From: Pseudaminobacter soli (ex Zhang et al. 2022)
GTDB lineage: Bacteria > Pseudomonadota > Alphaproteobacteria > Rhizobiales > Rhizobiaceae
Direction: 5' to 3'
Length of the DNA stretch: 64,000 nt
NCBI RefSeq assembly: GCF_014595955.1
Contig: NZ_JABVCF010000001.1
Location: forward strand, 1-64,000
A program made the position numbers and the translations under genes. A model generated the notes under the pieces. It saw nothing but the letters and a program-made list of their open reading frames with translations, ran no database searches and was not told where the DNA came from. Numbering within the stretch: the first letter of the stretch is position 1; each line of letters starts with the position of its first letter. Below, piece by piece: positions 36,180 through 44,565 of the stretch.

Positions 36180-36986
36180 TCAAGCCTTCTGGAGCAACGT
36201 CATCAGCGCCATTGCGCCCTGTGGCGCTCGGATCTTGCCTTCGTGGATGATGTAGACGAACACGTCGCGTGGCTTGGCCGGAGAGGCTGACGAAGGATCG
36301 GCGAGCGGCAGATCGCGAGGCTGGCCACCCTCGGACCACACTCGCGTGCGTTCGGCCCACCGCTCCAACTCTTCGGCCGGATAGGCGGTCGGGATGGTAT
36401 CTTCTCCCTTCTGCAGGCGCGCATAGACGAAGTCCGCTGTCACGTCCGCGATCTCGGGGTATTCGTGATGCTGGGCGTAGCAGATCGCTGCCCCGTATTT
36501 GCGGGCCAGCGCGACGAATTCCGGCACGGCGAACGAGCCGTGCCGCACCTCCAGCACGTGCCTCAGTGGAACTCCGCCGGTCTTGGCGGGCAGCAGCTTC
36601 AGAAAGCCTTCAAAGTCGTCCGGCTCGAACTTTTTGGTCGGAGCGAACTGCCAAACGACCGGCCCGAGGCGGTCCCCGAGTTCATGGACGCCCGTGTCCC
36701 AGAATTTCTTCATGGACTCGCCGGCCTCGGCGAGCACCTTCTTGTTGGTGACGAAGCGGTTGCCCTTGACCGAGAACACGAACCCGTCCGGCGTATCGGC
36801 AGCCCATTTCGCAAAAGTCTCCGGCGTCTGGCCGCGATAATAGGTGCCGTTGATCTCGATGGTGGGGACCATCCGCGAGGCGTAGTGAAGCTGCTGCTTC
36901 TTCGGCAGGTCCTCGGGGTAGAAGGTGCCTTCCCAGGGCTCGAAGGTCCAGCCGCCCATGCCCGCTCGGATCGTGCCTGATGTCAT
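36180..36986 (-). CDS. DUF72 (YecE-like) family protein
   Basis: 268 residues with the DUF72 TIM-barrel-like fold. Typical segments: IRAGMGGWTFEPWEGTFYPE at the start, ASRMVPTIEINGTYYRGQTP, FVFSVKGNRFVTNKK and LGPVVWQFAPTKKF. The reaction is unknown for the family. ATG at 36986 is preferred, with GAGGCGAAG immediately upstream; an in-frame ATG at 37085 adds 33 non-conserved residues. Stand-alone gene. Confidence 0.85.
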   Translation of the reverse strand: MTSGTIRAGMGGWTFEPWEGTFYPEDLPKKQQLHYASRMVPTIEINGTYYRGQTPETFAKWAADTPDGFVFSVKGNRFVTNKKVLAEAGESMKKFWDTGVHELGDRLGPVVWQFAPTKKFEPDDFEGFLKLLPAKTGGVPLRHVLEVRHGSFAVPEFVALARKYGAAICYAQHHEYPEIADVTADFVYARLQKGEDTIPTAYPAEELERWAERTRVWSEGGQPRDLPLADPSSASPAKPRDVFVYIIHEGKIRAPQGAMALMTLLQKA

Positions 36987-37164
36987 CTTCGCCTCGTTTC
37001 CCGGATTGTGCGCCGAAAATGCGTTTGTCACGCTGCTTTGTCCACCCGGGGATTTACGGCTCCTGACAGCACTTCCCGTTGCCACGCCCGGGTTTTAACC
37101 GTCTGGCCATTGAGCTCGTTGGAATGCTTGGCTTTCTGAGAACCGCCGCACGGGCATCCGCGCG

Positions 37165-38124
37165 TCATGACGTATCCGGCCGCTCCAGCGCGTAGATGGC
37201 CAGCGCATGGGCGTGAGCCAGCACCTCGTCAACCTCCCTGACATTGCGCGGACGGCTGGCGGATGGATCAAAGCGAGGCAGACGGCCGCCGGGTGGACGC
37301 CCGGCCCGCAACGGCGAGATGCGCCTGATACGACCGGTGGCGCGCGCTTCCCGCATAGCATCGCGGCGCGCCTTCCAGCGGGCAAAGCGTTTTGCCTGTC
37401 CCGGCAGGTCGTCGAGCGCGGCAGCCAGCGCGGCGAGGCGTCGGCCGAGACGCGACGCGTCAATCGGGTCGTCGGGCGAGGGCGGCGCCGGGAAGGAAGA
37501 CGGCTCGACTAGGCCGGGAAACAGGATGCGCGGGGCGCCGTAGGCGGACGCATAGGGGCGGTAGCCGCAGTCCTTCGACAGGCTCTGCTTCGACAAGCTC
37601 TCCTTCGACAGGCTCAGGATGCGGCGCGGCCGGTCGATGAGCGGCAGGCTCAAGGGGCGCGGACGGCCGGCGAGGGCGCCTCGACCGGTTGCGGCGGCCG
37701 CCCCAGCAAGATCGGCGGGCGACATCACGACGGCAATGCCGAGCCTGCGCAGCACCGGCTCCATGGTTGCGGGCTTCGGCTTGGATTCTCGCTGGGGTGG
37801 GAGGGCGACGATCAAACCACGCGCGGCCGCGATGATCAGCCGCCGCGCCGCCGCTTCGGCCGGCCACAACAGCCGCAGTATGGCGCGGTGGAGTCGGCGG
37901 GGCAGGATGAGTTTCACCTCCCCCTTGTGGGGAGGTCGGCGGCCGTCAGACCGCGGGGTGGGGGTATTTTCGGCGTCGCGACCCCCACCCGACGCTTCGC
38001 GTCGACCTCCCCACAAGGGGGAGGTGAACGCGGCTTCGCCGTCGAGCCCGGCCATGGCCAGGAGCGTCGTGACGATGCGCTTCAGCCACTGGCGATTCCG
38101 CTCGATTGCCGCACTTCCGTCCAT
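37165..38124 (-). CDS. Hypothetical protein carrying in-frame palindromic repeats
   Basis: 319 residues from the ATG at 38124, which has AAGGAGG just upstream (a longer frame starts at 38304). The N-terminus AAIERNRQWLKRIVTTLLAM and the C-terminal half (ASRLGRRLAALAAALDDLPG, then QAKRFARWKARRDAMREARA, then EVDEVLAHAHALAIYALERP) look like a real rhizobial protein of unknown function. Two insertions disturb it: a palindromic repeat element translated as FTSPLWGGRREA...PPHKGEVK, and a triple SLSK repeat. Both keep the frame. Arginine and proline are over-represented. Whether it is expressed is unclear; function unknown. Confidence 0.6.
   Translation of the reverse strand: MDGSAAIERNRQWLKRIVTTLLAMAGLDGEAAFTSPLWGGRREASGGGRDAENTPTPRSDGRRPPHKGEVKLILPRRLHRAILRLLWPAEAAARRLIIAAARGLIVALPPQRESKPKPATMEPVLRRLGIAVVMSPADLAGAAAATGRGALAGRPRPLSLPLIDRPRRILSLSKESLSKQSLSKDCGYRPYASAYGAPRILFPGLVEPSSFPAPPSPDDPIDASRLGRRLAALAAALDDLPGQAKRFARWKARRDAMREARATGRIRRISPLRAGRPPGGRLPRFDPSASRPRNVREVDEVLAHAHALAIYALERPDTS
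37573..37617. repeat. Triple 15-bp repeat (CTTCGACAGGCTCxx) in frame
   Basis: Three consecutive units of CTTCGACAGGCTCTG type with period 15, read on the minus strand as SLSKE, SLSKQ, SLSKD. The CTTCGACAGGCTCAGGATG sequence is a common interspersed repeat motif in alphaproteobacterial genomes, here multiplied inside a reading frame. Confidence 0.75.
37913..38028. repeat. 116-bp palindromic element inserted in a reading frame
   Basis: Perfect 26-base inverted arms at 37913-37938 and 38003-38028 (each containing CCTCCCC and the complementary GGGGAGG), with an inner eight-base pair GTGGGGGT (37958-37965) / ACCCCCAC (37981-37988). It is translated in the hypothetical gene as a 39-residue insert that begins FTSPLWGG and ends PPHKGEVK. 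Confidence 0.85.
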
Positions 38125-38472
38125 CCCGCCTCCTTCGAACACAGGCGGCGGGATCGTCGCACCGATCGGAACGGCGGGTATAGAGATAGGAAAACAATCC
38201 TGAAACATGCTGACAGTCGTTGCGCTTCCCCTTATCGGTGTTGGGGGGCGAAGACGCTCTGGCGGGCGTGGTGGAAAAAGCACTGGTTTTGGACGCATCG
38301 CCACCTTGGACCGGATCCACGCCGTTCAGGCGGCGGGTGAAGGGCTGGCGCTAGTGTCGAAGGACAGGTGGCTGGGGAGTTGGGCGCGGAGGTGGTTTGG
38401 GGGAGGTAGGTAACGCCCGCTCCAGCTTCGTCGCATATTCTGCCCATATTCGTGCAATAGGTAGATCGCCCT
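38125..38472. other. Intergenic region with no recognised feature
   Basis: 348 bases between the divergent hypothetical gene and the DUF5131 gene. It contains no ORF with family likeness, no terminator and no clear operator. Promoters for both flanking genes must lie here. The sequence marks the left boundary of the DUF5131/TcmP/BRCT block. Confidence 0.4.
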
Positions 38473-39225
38473 ATGGCTGAAACCTCGATCGAATGGACCG
38501 ACGCGACATGGAACCCCGTGGCGGGTTGCATGATCCTGACTGCGGGTTGCACGAACTGCTATGCGATGCGGATGGCGGCGCGGCTCGAAGCTATGGGGGT
38601 CGACAAGTACGCGGGGCTCACACGGAAATCCGGGGGGCGCGCAAAGTGGACTGGCAAGCTGTTTCTTGATCGCAAGTCGCTTGCTATTCCTGCAACCTGG
38701 TCGAAGCCTCGGCGGGTGTTCGTAAACTCGATGTCAGACCTGTTCCATGCTGACGTTCCGGCGGACTTTATCGCTGAGGTCTGGCAGGTAATGGCCGATA
38801 CACCGCGGCACACATACCAGATTCTTACTAAACGACCCGACCGGATGAACGAGATCGTACCATTGCTGCGCAAGTTGCCGAACGTTTGGCTTGGGACAAG
38901 CGTCGAGGATAACCGGGTGCTGCATAGGATCGATGAACTCCGGCGAGTTCCTGCGGTGGTCCGCTTTATCTCCTTCGAGCCGCTAATCGGATCGGTCGCC
39001 GCAGCCGATCTCACTGACATCCATTGGGCGATTGTAGGCGGCGAGTCCGGCCCCAAGGCTCGACACATGGATCCGGCGTGGGTCGATGAAGTGGAAGCCA
39101 TGTGCCGTCGCGCGGGTGCCGCCTTTTTCTTCAAGCAGTGGGGCGGTCGAAACAAGAAGTCGACGGGCCGCTTACTCAACGGTCGAACATACGACGAAAT
39201 GCCCGCGGCCGAAGCAGCGCTTTAA
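38473..39225 (+). CDS. DUF5131 family protein (phage Gp37/Gp68-like), three-cysteine motif
   Basis: 250 residues. The N-terminus SIEWTDATWNPVAGC is followed by a C-x6-C-x2-C arrangement (Cys19, Cys26, Cys29: GCMILTAGCTNCYA), which in this family is thought to hold an iron-sulfur cluster in a radical-SAM-like barrel. Other signature segments: RRVFVNSMSDLFHADVPADF, TYQILTKRPDRM, WLGTSVEDN, RFISFEPLIG and WAIVGGESGPKAR. Found in phages and bacterial accessory regions; reaction unknown. Its 3' end overlaps that of the convergent TcmP-like gene by four bases, the partner with which the family is typically found. The DNA is visibly richer in A/T-ending codons than the neighbours. Confidence 0.88.
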   Translation: MAETSIEWTDATWNPVAGCMILTAGCTNCYAMRMAARLEAMGVDKYAGLTRKSGGRAKWTGKLFLDRKSLAIPATWSKPRRVFVNSMSDLFHADVPADFIAEVWQVMADTPRHTYQILTKRPDRMNEIVPLLRKLPNVWLGTSVEDNRVLHRIDELRRVPAVVRFISFEPLIGSVAAADLTDIHWAIVGGESGPKARHMDPAWVDEVEAMCRRAGAAFFFKQWGGRNKKSTGRLLNGRTYDEMPAAEAAL

Positions 39226-40148
39226 AACAGCGAACCCTGTGCGGTTTCAGTAGCTGACGCCCAGAATCTATGGGCCAGATCGTGCTTAGCCACGAGAAGG
39301 AGCCAATATAGGGGCTGACTCCTGTCCCCTGTAATGAGCCTCATGTCGGCCGATGCGTCGATGCCGAGATTGGCAACCAAGTTACGCCAATACTCGAACA
39401 CGTCACGTCGAATGTTCGGCTGAGATTGCTTGAGATTGACCGAAGCGCGCCATCCGGGAGCGAATGTCTCGAATGCGCTCTGTTGCATGGCTACATTAAA
39501 GCCGAGGTTTCGCTGGAGGTCCATCTTGCTTACATGGACCATCATGTCGATGCGTCGGAGTCGCGACAACGTCCGCATCACCTCGAAATCGAAGGCTCCA
39601 AGGTTGAACGGATCTATGAAAGCGAAATGTAGCCCGTTGGGATGCAGGCGCGCGGCAATTTGCTTTACAGTGTCGACTGCCTTGCCGTGGACGGGAACGA
39701 CCGGCGCCTTTAAGCGGCGCAGCCGCTCCGCCGCGTGCTCCAACTTCTCATTGTCCGCGTCCGCGATAAAGACCGTGGAGAAGGGAGCGCCTCCTTCGAC
39801 ACTCTTCTTCCAAGCCGCGACGCAGCTGCCATCGATCCATTCTCCGGTCTTTCGCACTCTGGCGCGGCCGGGACCGCAGAATAGGTCGATGTAGGTCGCC
39901 CCTGCATTCGTTGGACCTATCCATCGACGTCGTACCGCACGGGAAATGTCGATGTAGCGCCGAAGAAGATTGTGCTTCTCCACCGCCCAGCCTCCCACCT
40001 CTTCGGCGGGTAGCCCGTCATCTCCGGCGATCAAGCTCCCCAAGCGACTATCTCGCACTTGCTGTAGGGAGCTTGGCGAAGGTGACTTATCCGCACACCT
40101 GGCCGTGCGATAATCTCGGGCGAAACGAGCCGTACCAGGTCTGGACAA
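39222..40148 (-). CDS. tcmP: TcmP-like three-Cys-motif partner protein
   Basis: 308 residues in the open frame; a GTG at 40058 (VRDSRLGSLIAGDDGLPAEE) is a likelier start by recalled family alignment, as the TTG at 40148 has no Shine-Dalgarno. Core segments match the three-Cys-motif partner family: GGWAVEKHNLLRRYIDISRA, GATYIDLFCGPGRARV (a Rossmann-like glycine loop with methyltransferase flavour), LHFAFIDPFNLGAFDFEVM and a C-terminal YWLLLVAKHDLAHRFW. The family is named for its association with proteins bearing the three-cysteine motif, here the adjacent DUF5131 gene. The reaction is unknown. Downstream of the BRCT gene on the same strand. Confidence 0.82.
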   Translation of the reverse strand: MSRPGTARFARDYRTARCADKSPSPSSLQQVRDSRLGSLIAGDDGLPAEEVGGWAVEKHNLLRRYIDISRAVRRRWIGPTNAGATYIDLFCGPGRARVRKTGEWIDGSCVAAWKKSVEGGAPFSTVFIADADNEKLEHAAERLRRLKAPVVPVHGKAVDTVKQIAARLHPNGLHFAFIDPFNLGAFDFEVMRTLSRLRRIDMMVHVSKMDLQRNLGFNVAMQQSAFETFAPGWRASVNLKQSQPNIRRDVFEYWRNLVANLGIDASADMRLITGDRSQPLYWLLLVAKHDLAHRFWASATETAQGSLF

Positions 40149-40197
40149 AGGGCTACAAGGCGGCGTTCACGCATATGGCCCCGTCGGAAGTTCGTAT

Positions 40198-40881
40198 TCA
40201 CAAATGCCGTACCCAATGCTGTTCCGATACGATCCGGATAGGTAACCCTCGCTCGCGCCATTCGCACGCTTGAAGGATCTTGTTGCCAAACGCAGAGTGC
40301 TTCCAGGATTCAGTGGCGTAAGCGCCGATGACGAGGAAATCCACTTTTTGGCTCAGGCCGCCAGCCCGACCGCCGCGATCAGCCACAGCTTGCTCGCAAT
40401 GCTTGCGCTGGCCATAAGTGAATGTGCCGGTGAAGCAATAGAACTTGTCGGCGAACGTCAGTGTTGGCGCCGGCGAGCACAAGGGGAGCGTGGTCGCCTT
40501 CAATACCTCACCCAGTTCGAAATCGCGGCTGCTGAATCGCTCGAGCGTGTCGAGCAACTCGCCGTGCTCTTCCTCGTCCACCACACCATCCGCGAGGATC
40601 TCGTTCACCCTCCGGTACAGCGTGTGAATGAGAGGCTGGTTGCTGATATCGGCATTGGCCGCGAGCCACTTCTGCAGAAACTCAACCTCGGTGCCATTAA
40701 TGCGATTGTCAGCGGCAAGACCGCGCGCAATTCCGATCAATTCGTCTATTTGCCGTGAAGTAATCCGGTCTCTGCCGACCCGGTTGTAAAACTGCTCATC
40801 CATAGAAGATTTCCCTCGTCCAAAGGGAATTTCCTGCTGAACTTGCAAGCTGTCAACAGTCTCTTGCGCGAACAATGACAT
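40198..40881 (-). CDS. BRCT-domain protein with TerB-like N-terminal region
   Basis: 227 residues; an ATG at 40803 preceded by GAGGGA is a plausible alternative start that would remove 26 residues. The N-terminal part (RQIDELIGIARGLAADNRIN, EVEFLQKWLAANADISNQPL, LYRRVNEILADGVVDEEEHG) is helical and resembles a TerB-like domain. The C-terminal BRCT domain contains FYCFTGTFTYGQRKHCEQAV, GGRAGGLSQKVDFLVIGAY, HSAFGNKILQACEWRERG and the WVRHL end, close to the ligase-type BRCT fold. BRCT domains bind DNA ends or phosphopeptides, so a role in DNA transactions or defence is plausible but unproven. It ends 50 bases before the TcmP-like frame, so the two are probably one operon. Confidence 0.8.
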   Translation of the reverse strand: MSLFAQETVDSLQVQQEIPFGRGKSSMDEQFYNRVGRDRITSRQIDELIGIARGLAADNRINGTEVEFLQKWLAANADISNQPLIHTLYRRVNEILADGVVDEEEHGELLDTLERFSSRDFELGEVLKATTLPLCSPAPTLTFADKFYCFTGTFTYGQRKHCEQAVADRGGRAGGLSQKVDFLVIGAYATESWKHSAFGNKILQACEWRERGLPIRIVSEQHWVRHL

Positions 40882-41033
40882 TGCTCAATTCGCGATTGTA
40901 TCGAGACGAAACCTCCGTTCGCCGTACTCGGACTTGACGAAGTGGCGGCTCTCGCATCCGGGGAGACGTCGCTATGCGGTTACATCTGCGGGTGCCGTCG
41001 CCGCTGCGGCCGGCCGCTGCCGCTCAGGCATGG

Positions 41034-41056
41034 ATCCTCGGGTCAAGCCCGAGGAT
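41034..41056. repeat. REP-like hairpin repeat
   Basis: Nine-base perfect arms ATCCTCGGG / CCCGAGGAT with loop TCAAG, within GGATCCTCGGGTCAAGCCC. This sequence is a widespread extragenic palindrome in alphaproteobacteria. Lies downstream of uvrA and may also act as its 3' stem. Confidence 0.7.
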
Positions 41057-41119
41057 GACGACGCGGGAAGCGGCACATCGACCGCCCCTTGCCGGCGCAC
41101 TTGCGCTTTTGCGTCTCCG

Positions 41120-44047
<2,928 letters not shown>

Positions 44048-44206
44048 GGCCGTTTTGCCGCCTTGACTGTGTTGAGATCCGGATCGGCCCGCCTCGATGC
44101 CGTCTCGCTTATTTAAGTACGCTTGGGCCGGAGTCGAGCACTTCTTGGCCGCTGGTCGCGGTTTACCCGGCATTGGCAGGATGGGGCAAGCGCAAAGAAC
44201 AAAGGA

Positions 44207-44221
44207 CGAACCCGCTACTGA
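44207..44221. promoter_or_regulatory. LexA (SOS) box upstream of uvrA
   Basis: GAAC-AAAGGAC-GAAC, that is GAAC-N7-GAAC, exactly the direct-repeat LexA site of alphaproteobacteria. It is 160 bases upstream of the uvrA start and supports SOS control of uvrA. Confidence 0.75.
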
Positions 44222-44565
44222 CAAACATCCGACTCTGGCAGGGGAAGCCCAGTGCAAACGTTCACACTTTTAACGGTCGAAAGGGGATTAGCGGTTGACC
44301 TTCGCGGCTGTGGGGAGCACAATTCCAGTGTCGCCGGGAAGACCACGACGGGCATGTCCCGTTGGAGCGGCCAAAGGCCTCCGCGGTGCGCTGCGGACCG
44401 TCACCCGGGCCGGCATTGGATGAACACGCGAGGAGGGAGCCATGACTCCACCGGACTGTTCAATATGGCTTGGCATTTCATGCTGAGCCGCGGCTGACGC
44501 AAAGGCCGGGATGAAATCCGGCCGGACACGAACCGTTATTCACCCTACAATCAGAGACCGATAGT

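Follow-up and report, generated by a model that had tools for sequence, protein, structure and literature searches.

Pairs of genes encoding a DUF5131 protein (Pfam PF07505, phage Gp37/Gp68) and a three-Cys-motif partner, or TcmP (NCBIfam TIGR04474), are already catalogued but uncharacterised: the two family models provide names only, and PADLOC lists the pair as defence candidates PDC-M41 and PDC-M30. We analyzed such a pair, together with an adjacent gene for a TerB-like/BRCT protein, in a stretch of 64,000 nucleotides from Pseudaminobacter soli (NZ_JABVCF010000001.1, positions 1 to 64,000; hereafter the window). No function for DUF5131 or TcmP was found in open-licence PubMed Central (PMC) papers. 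An expression table in one of them places the TcmP gene SMa2243 beside the phage-defence gene hna (PMC12445080), a passage of another includes four TcmPs among Sinorhizobium prophage products (PMC12429752), and the relevant section of a third gives PDC-M30 in 32 of 100 Pseudomonas aeruginosa strains, 68.8% of them phage-resistant, which is a correlation only (PMC10855318). The B components of PDC-M41 and PDC-M30 matched the window DUF5131 protein at 2.4e-107 and 1.1e-97; the B models barely separate the two candidates. The window TcmP matched the PDC-M41 A component at only 1.7e-8; its type, T2 (Table 1), is weakly covered by these models, and the comparison was made component by component.

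Both family assignments of the initial annotation held. The DUF5131 protein matched PF07505 at 2.3e-94 (315.9 bits; Pfam cut-off 28.9), and its three cysteines, C19-x6-C26-x2-C29, were invariant in a 40-row alignment. Its partner matched TIGR04474 at 4e-50 (171.2 bits; NCBIfam cut-off 53) and lies next to a three-Cys-motif protein, the adjacency that goes with this family. The co-occurrence of the two, also stated at the outset, is borne out by the counts. Among 151 genomes of the same bacterial family, DUF5131 was present in 32 and TcmP in 15 (14 above cut-off), and 15 of 17 TcmP loci contained DUF5131, the other two being a second TcmP of one genome (G074) and a partial match below cut-off. 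We also examined DUF5131 loci from viruses (80, with up to 4 kb per side) and from genomes (30, with about 1.5 kb per side). TcmP was present in 56 of the viral loci, the pair being convergent in 35, tandem with TcmP downstream in 15 or upstream in 5, and divergent in 1; it was found within 1.5 kb in 14 of the genomic loci. DUF5131 and TcmP thus form a real, recurrent unit, a convergent prophage-type cassette that is common in bacterial viruses. The genomic loci without TcmP mostly had longer DUF5131 proteins (L222, L224, L227–L229, L232 and others), up to ~470 aa versus ~250 aa, which perhaps carry a target domain of their own.

The new finding is that TcmP is swapped as a cassette beside a strongly conserved DUF5131. 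TcmP showed no BLAST similarity in 167 of the 277 comparisons in which DUF5131 was at least 75% identical (61 non-redundant pairs), in 22 of 37 at 85% or above and in 6 of 9 at 90% or above, the extreme case being 92.4%. For example, viral locus L129 has a DUF5131 that shares 89% identity with that of the window, yet its TcmP falls in a different group and has no BLAST similarity to the window TcmP. When the TcmP groups were mapped on a quick tree of 67 DUF5131 proteins, they changed 24 times, where 8 is the least possible, and strongly supported branches alone forced 8 changes for T1, 5 for T2 and 7 for T3. Even so, the groups clustered more strongly than in all 200 shuffles, the pattern that inheritance interrupted by swaps should give. 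Breakpoints could be located in flanking DNA: L149 and L150 matched at 87% up to the 3' end of DUF5131 and at 97% past TcmP, with no match across TcmP itself. Similarly, L136 and L139 matched at 88% to the DUF5131 stop and again past TcmP, with one TcmP convergent and the other in tandem. Overall, the TcmP group differed in 7 of 15 locus pairs with at least 80% flanking match on both sides, representing about two events. These breakpoints rule out that TcmP simply evolves fast without being exchanged. The same idea is countered by 24 of the comparisons listed, most of them involving L181, in which TcmP was at least 38% identical but DUF5131 less than 50%.

A Burkholderia glumae plasmid (L209:47-8786) carries a radical S-adenosylmethionine (SAM) protein, TcmP, DUF5131, a second TcmP, and error-prone and Y-family DNA polymerases. 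Its single DUF5131 lies between two unlike TcmPs, one closest to PDC-M30A and the other to PDC-M41A, and matches the B models of both candidates about equally. With both A types around one DUF5131, PDC-M30 and PDC-M41 appear to be a single modular system with variant partners.

The predicted structures suggest what kinds of proteins are combined. The DUF5131 model showed a partial-TIM-barrel-type fold which, with the three invariant cysteines, is consistent with a predicted Fe-S cluster. In a structure comparison made on a second look it was most like spore photoproduct lyase, which took ranks 1–6, and viperin, and DUF5131 is predicted to be a radical-SAM enzyme of this kind. The likeness is one of model fold: identity was ~12% to spore photoproduct lyase and 6–9% to viperin, no solved relatives were found by single-sequence or profile search, and Foldseek gave no match at 0.001. 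Spore photoproduct lyase has the canonical radical-SAM spacing C-x3-C-x2-C, whereas DUF5131 has C-x6-C-x2-C; other spacings are known in the superfamily. DUF5131 also differs in having a methyltransferase-fold partner, and no spores are implied. It matched radical SAM mobile pair A (TIGR04471) weakly (2.6e-21; 76 bits versus a cut-off of 355) and is not a member of that family. TcmP is predicted to be a SAM-dependent methyltransferase-fold protein, its class I model lying near RlmJ and Trm1. This likeness, which extends to DUF519 methyltransferases, is unspecific, since other methyltransferases scored nearly as well, and sequence searches (single or profile) found no convincing solved relative of TcmP (best 0.26). 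RlmJ-type nucleic-acid amino-methyltransferases carry the motif [DNS]-P-P-[YFW]. RlmJ, Trm1 and DUF519 enzymes have DPPY at the motif IV position; TcmP has DPFN there and departs from the motif.

Viral loci also indicate when TcmP may be expressed. In 24 of the 25 viral loci having both genes, several of which are near-copies, a cI-type repressor was located upstream on the TcmP strand, and in 13 it was within 500 bp. The reading direction of TcmP thus tends to be the lysogenic one. The place downstream of a cI-type repressor, usual for prophage TcmP, is one where exclusion genes occur. Alternatively, the pair may serve the phage itself, modifying phage or host nucleic acid for the prophage (anti-restriction, or rRNA or tRNA modification) with no role in exclusion. 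DUF5131 is indeed widespread, with 157 phage records besides 404 from plasmids in the two collections, and is often present in viral contigs, some solo phage DUF5131s were labelled RNA methyltransferase by their depositors, and the nearness of the TcmP model to RlmJ and Trm1 would fit. However, the prevailing repressor direction of TcmP suggests expression during lysogeny, and the window copy lies outside any recognisable prophage. We consider a purely phage-serving role unlikely.

The site beside uvrA was compared with that of three congeners (G001, G002 and G003). Both uvrA and a DUF72 gene were kept in all three, and the DUF5131-TcmP-BRCT block was absent from the site in the stretches read. 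In G002 the site held a C5-cytosine methylase, a Vsr endonuclease and a GIY-YIG-like nuclease (Eco29kI match 29.4 bits, slightly below the cut-off of 30.8). G001 had FRG and HepT-like genes after uvrA, with contigs breaking between uvrA and DUF72. In G003 the order was a DUF4258 gene, another small gene, a repeated uvrA end, VapC and DUF72. This repeat, past the DUF4258 insert (L122:5920-6030), is a second, ~78% identical copy of the last 118–124 nt of uvrA, as though a replacement gene end had come with the insert. PIN domains were present at the inner edge in both G002 and G003. In each of the four species, this is an insertion site of variable content, rich in defence genes. The view of the block as a mobile accessory insert, advanced in the initial annotation, agrees with this turnover and with the foreign composition described below.

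The same data bear on two further explanations. One is that the pair repairs or tolerates DNA lesions, with DUF5131 reversing a damaged base, TcmP helping to find the lesion and the adjacency to uvrA being meaningful. The top-ranking structural likeness to spore photoproduct lyase, the polymerase neighbours on the B. glumae plasmid and uvrA itself, which adjoins the block, would favor this idea. However, because unrelated cassettes fill the site in the congeners, the placement beside uvrA does not appear to be a functional link; the polymerases occur in one locus only, and an exchangeable partner is not expected for a repair enzyme. A repair role is accordingly quite improbable in our judgment. 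The other explanation, an addiction-like (toxin-antitoxin) pair kept by post-segregational killing, would suit two small mobile genes at a site where congeners carry toxin-antitoxin-like genes, but both proteins have enzyme folds, no resemblance of either to known toxins emerged from the libraries searched, and one transcript cannot serve two convergent genes. We regard it as very unlikely.

The third gene of the block had been described as TerB-like with a ligase-type BRCT domain, and as part of a cassette in which BRCT contributed docking or DNA-end binding to the pair. The BRCT half of this description was supported by profile matches of the C-terminal half to RFC1 (1.3e-5) and ligase A (1.2e-5). 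The TerB-like label of the N-terminal half came from the initial annotation, and Pfam gave no match for the protein. The RFC1 BRCT domain binds 5'-phosphate DNA ends through a phosphate pocket of T, G, R and K residues. T125, G126 and R133 of the window protein were invariant in 12 sequences, and K458, the fourth pocket residue in RFC1, aligned with a non-conserved place in the family. The family corresponds to phrog_3989 and is mobile. In phage K139 its gene is flanked by the repressor cI and by glo, whose annotation is involvement in phage exclusion, in Pseudomonas phage phi1 it follows the repressor, and in L064 a repressor-like gene precedes it; most loci had no repressor nearby.

An alternative is that the three genes do form a system in this lineage, in which the BRCT protein would bind DNA ends or partners on behalf of the pair. 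The position of the BRCT gene adjacent to TcmP on the same strand, its similar composition, and the occurrence of its family after phage repressors and in loci with defence genes would suggest this. However, among the best 80 of at least 131 confirmed genomic relatives, searched up to 8 kb per side where the contig allowed, neither DUF5131 nor TcmP was found by single sequence or profile. Reciprocally, the BRCT profile matched none of the 80 viral and none of 29 other genomic DUF5131 loci, only that of the window. These counts, which the initial annotation had itself proposed as the refutation test, came out against the trio as a cassette. The ~157 bp gap between the BRCT gene and TcmP also speaks against it, and docking or end binding for the pair is unsupported beyond this one locus. 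A lineage-specific trio retains only a slight chance. The BRCT gene is probably a separate accessory gene, only a passenger, that landed in the same island. It may have met the pair here because its family can also occupy the place after a repressor.

Defence genes were frequent around the BRCT family. Helicases stood directly upstream in at least two loci, of Shango type in L042 and of PDC-S37/Hhe type in L062, and 59 upstream neighbours yielded SngC 3 times, PDC-S37 3, Hhe 3 and JetD once, with PDC-S37 and Hhe overlapping at least in L062. As a control, 50 genes were drawn from the same loci at a distance of 4 kb or more; in the 25 families listed (of 46), seven kinds appeared, once each, although some of these may be one protein and JetA, JetB and SngA may come from the same systems. 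The control covered 50 of the 59 loci, the others having no suitable far gene or being skipped by the frame check. Given this similar yield, the BRCT gene is found in defence-rich places, but a dedicated role as the 3' gene of defence operons is unsupported. On a Hymenobacter plasmid (L016:1-5597) a TerB-C protein, an ATPase and a DEAD/DEAH helicase are followed by the BRCT gene; we take this, from gene order alone, to resemble Shango followed by BRCT. SOS control of the BRCT gene was rejected, as GTTC-N7-GTTC, presumably the alphaproteobacterial LexA motif, occurred in none of 87 loci within 220 bp upstream. A box of this type is present at 44197 in the window, within the 5' extension of the listed uvrA open reading frame (ORF).

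The layout of the locus is shown in Table 1. Convergence with a four-base 3' overlap, as initially noted, was confirmed.

Table 1. Features of the DUF5131-TcmP locus and its surroundings (window coordinates).
Feature	Position	Strand	Details
DUF5131	38473..39225	+	250 aa; predicted fold like spore photoproduct lyase/viperin (radical-SAM); C-x6-C-x2-C
TcmP	39222..40043	-	273 aa, TTG start; subfamily T2 (name coined here); predicted class I SAM-methyltransferase fold
TTAA overlap of convergent stop codons, DUF5131/TcmP	39222..39225	.	Seen in sequence; -4 spacing also in 12/16 viral T2 loci
TerB-like/BRCT protein	40201..40803	-	201 aa; phrog_3989 5.8e-60; judged neighbour, not partner
Apparent VapC (PIN) remnant; inner edge of insert	38207..38413	+	58% identity over 24 aa to G003 VapC, 5.6e-7
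uvrA; outer edge of variable site	41120..44257	-	ORF; congener orthologues ~90% identical
DUF72 protein; inner edge of variable site	36180..37085	-	PF01904 4.7e-60; best orthologue in each of three congeners 64-75% identical

All three ORFs of the block are open. Alignment with relatives placed the true TcmP start at the TTG at 40043, so the listed 308-aa ORF is overlong, and the BRCT start likely at 40803, where its relatives start. The block is flanked by uvrA on one side and by the DUF72 gene and a hypothetical gene on the other. The latter (ORF 37165-38304, repeat-bearing) had no Pfam match, and only its final 69 residues matched G003 DNA at the same place (65%). GC contents of DUF5131, TcmP and BRCT genes were 0.593, 0.580 and 0.570. 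GC content at third codon positions (GC3) was 0.67–0.69, versus a mean of 0.784 (standard deviation 0.063) for 59 predicted genes of the window, which were called by a simple frame-composition rule and not by a gene finder. Since the mean GC3 of the block was the lowest among 57 runs of three adjacent predicted genes, the excess of A/T-ending codons noticed initially is clear in the block as a whole and modest gene by gene. A scan of the block for promoters and terminators gave nothing exceeding shuffles. Between the BRCT gene and uvrA (approximately 40985-41060) there is a short palindromic repeat, CCTCGGGCTTGACCCGAGG, of a kind that occurs in alphaproteobacteria.

Nucleic-acid modification or defence, as first suggested for this locus, is still the best guess for the pair, which PADLOC lists as a defence candidate; the evidence is that of genomic setting. 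We propose that the pair is of prophage origin and modifies nucleic acid, probably against phages, with the target set by TcmP. TcmP would recognise, and may methylate, a nucleic-acid target, on which DUF5131 would perform radical chemistry. Competing phages would be excluded, the lysogen or host would be protected, and a swap of TcmP would change the target. Taken as a whole, this chain is the best-supported account and stands at an even balance in our estimation, because it is firm as to structure and evolution and inferred as to biochemistry. A broader proposal is more tentative, and we hold it as possible rather than probable: one modular temperate-phage immunity system with a conserved radical enzyme of the spore photoproduct lyase/viperin kind, TcmP as its swappable specificity cassette, PDC-M30 and PDC-M41 as partner variants, and defence by radical chemistry on nucleic acid, not tied to cutting. 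Restriction systems swap their specificity subunits much as TcmP would be swapped here between otherwise homologous prophages. If TcmP is the specificity element, function is testable at once, as L149/L150 and L136/L139, prophages differing only in TcmP, are natural swap experiments. If the broader proposal is true, two catalogued defence candidates, PDC-M30 and PDC-M41, would merge, and the targeting of a radical-SAM enzyme by an exchangeable methyltransferase-fold protein would represent a new mechanism class.
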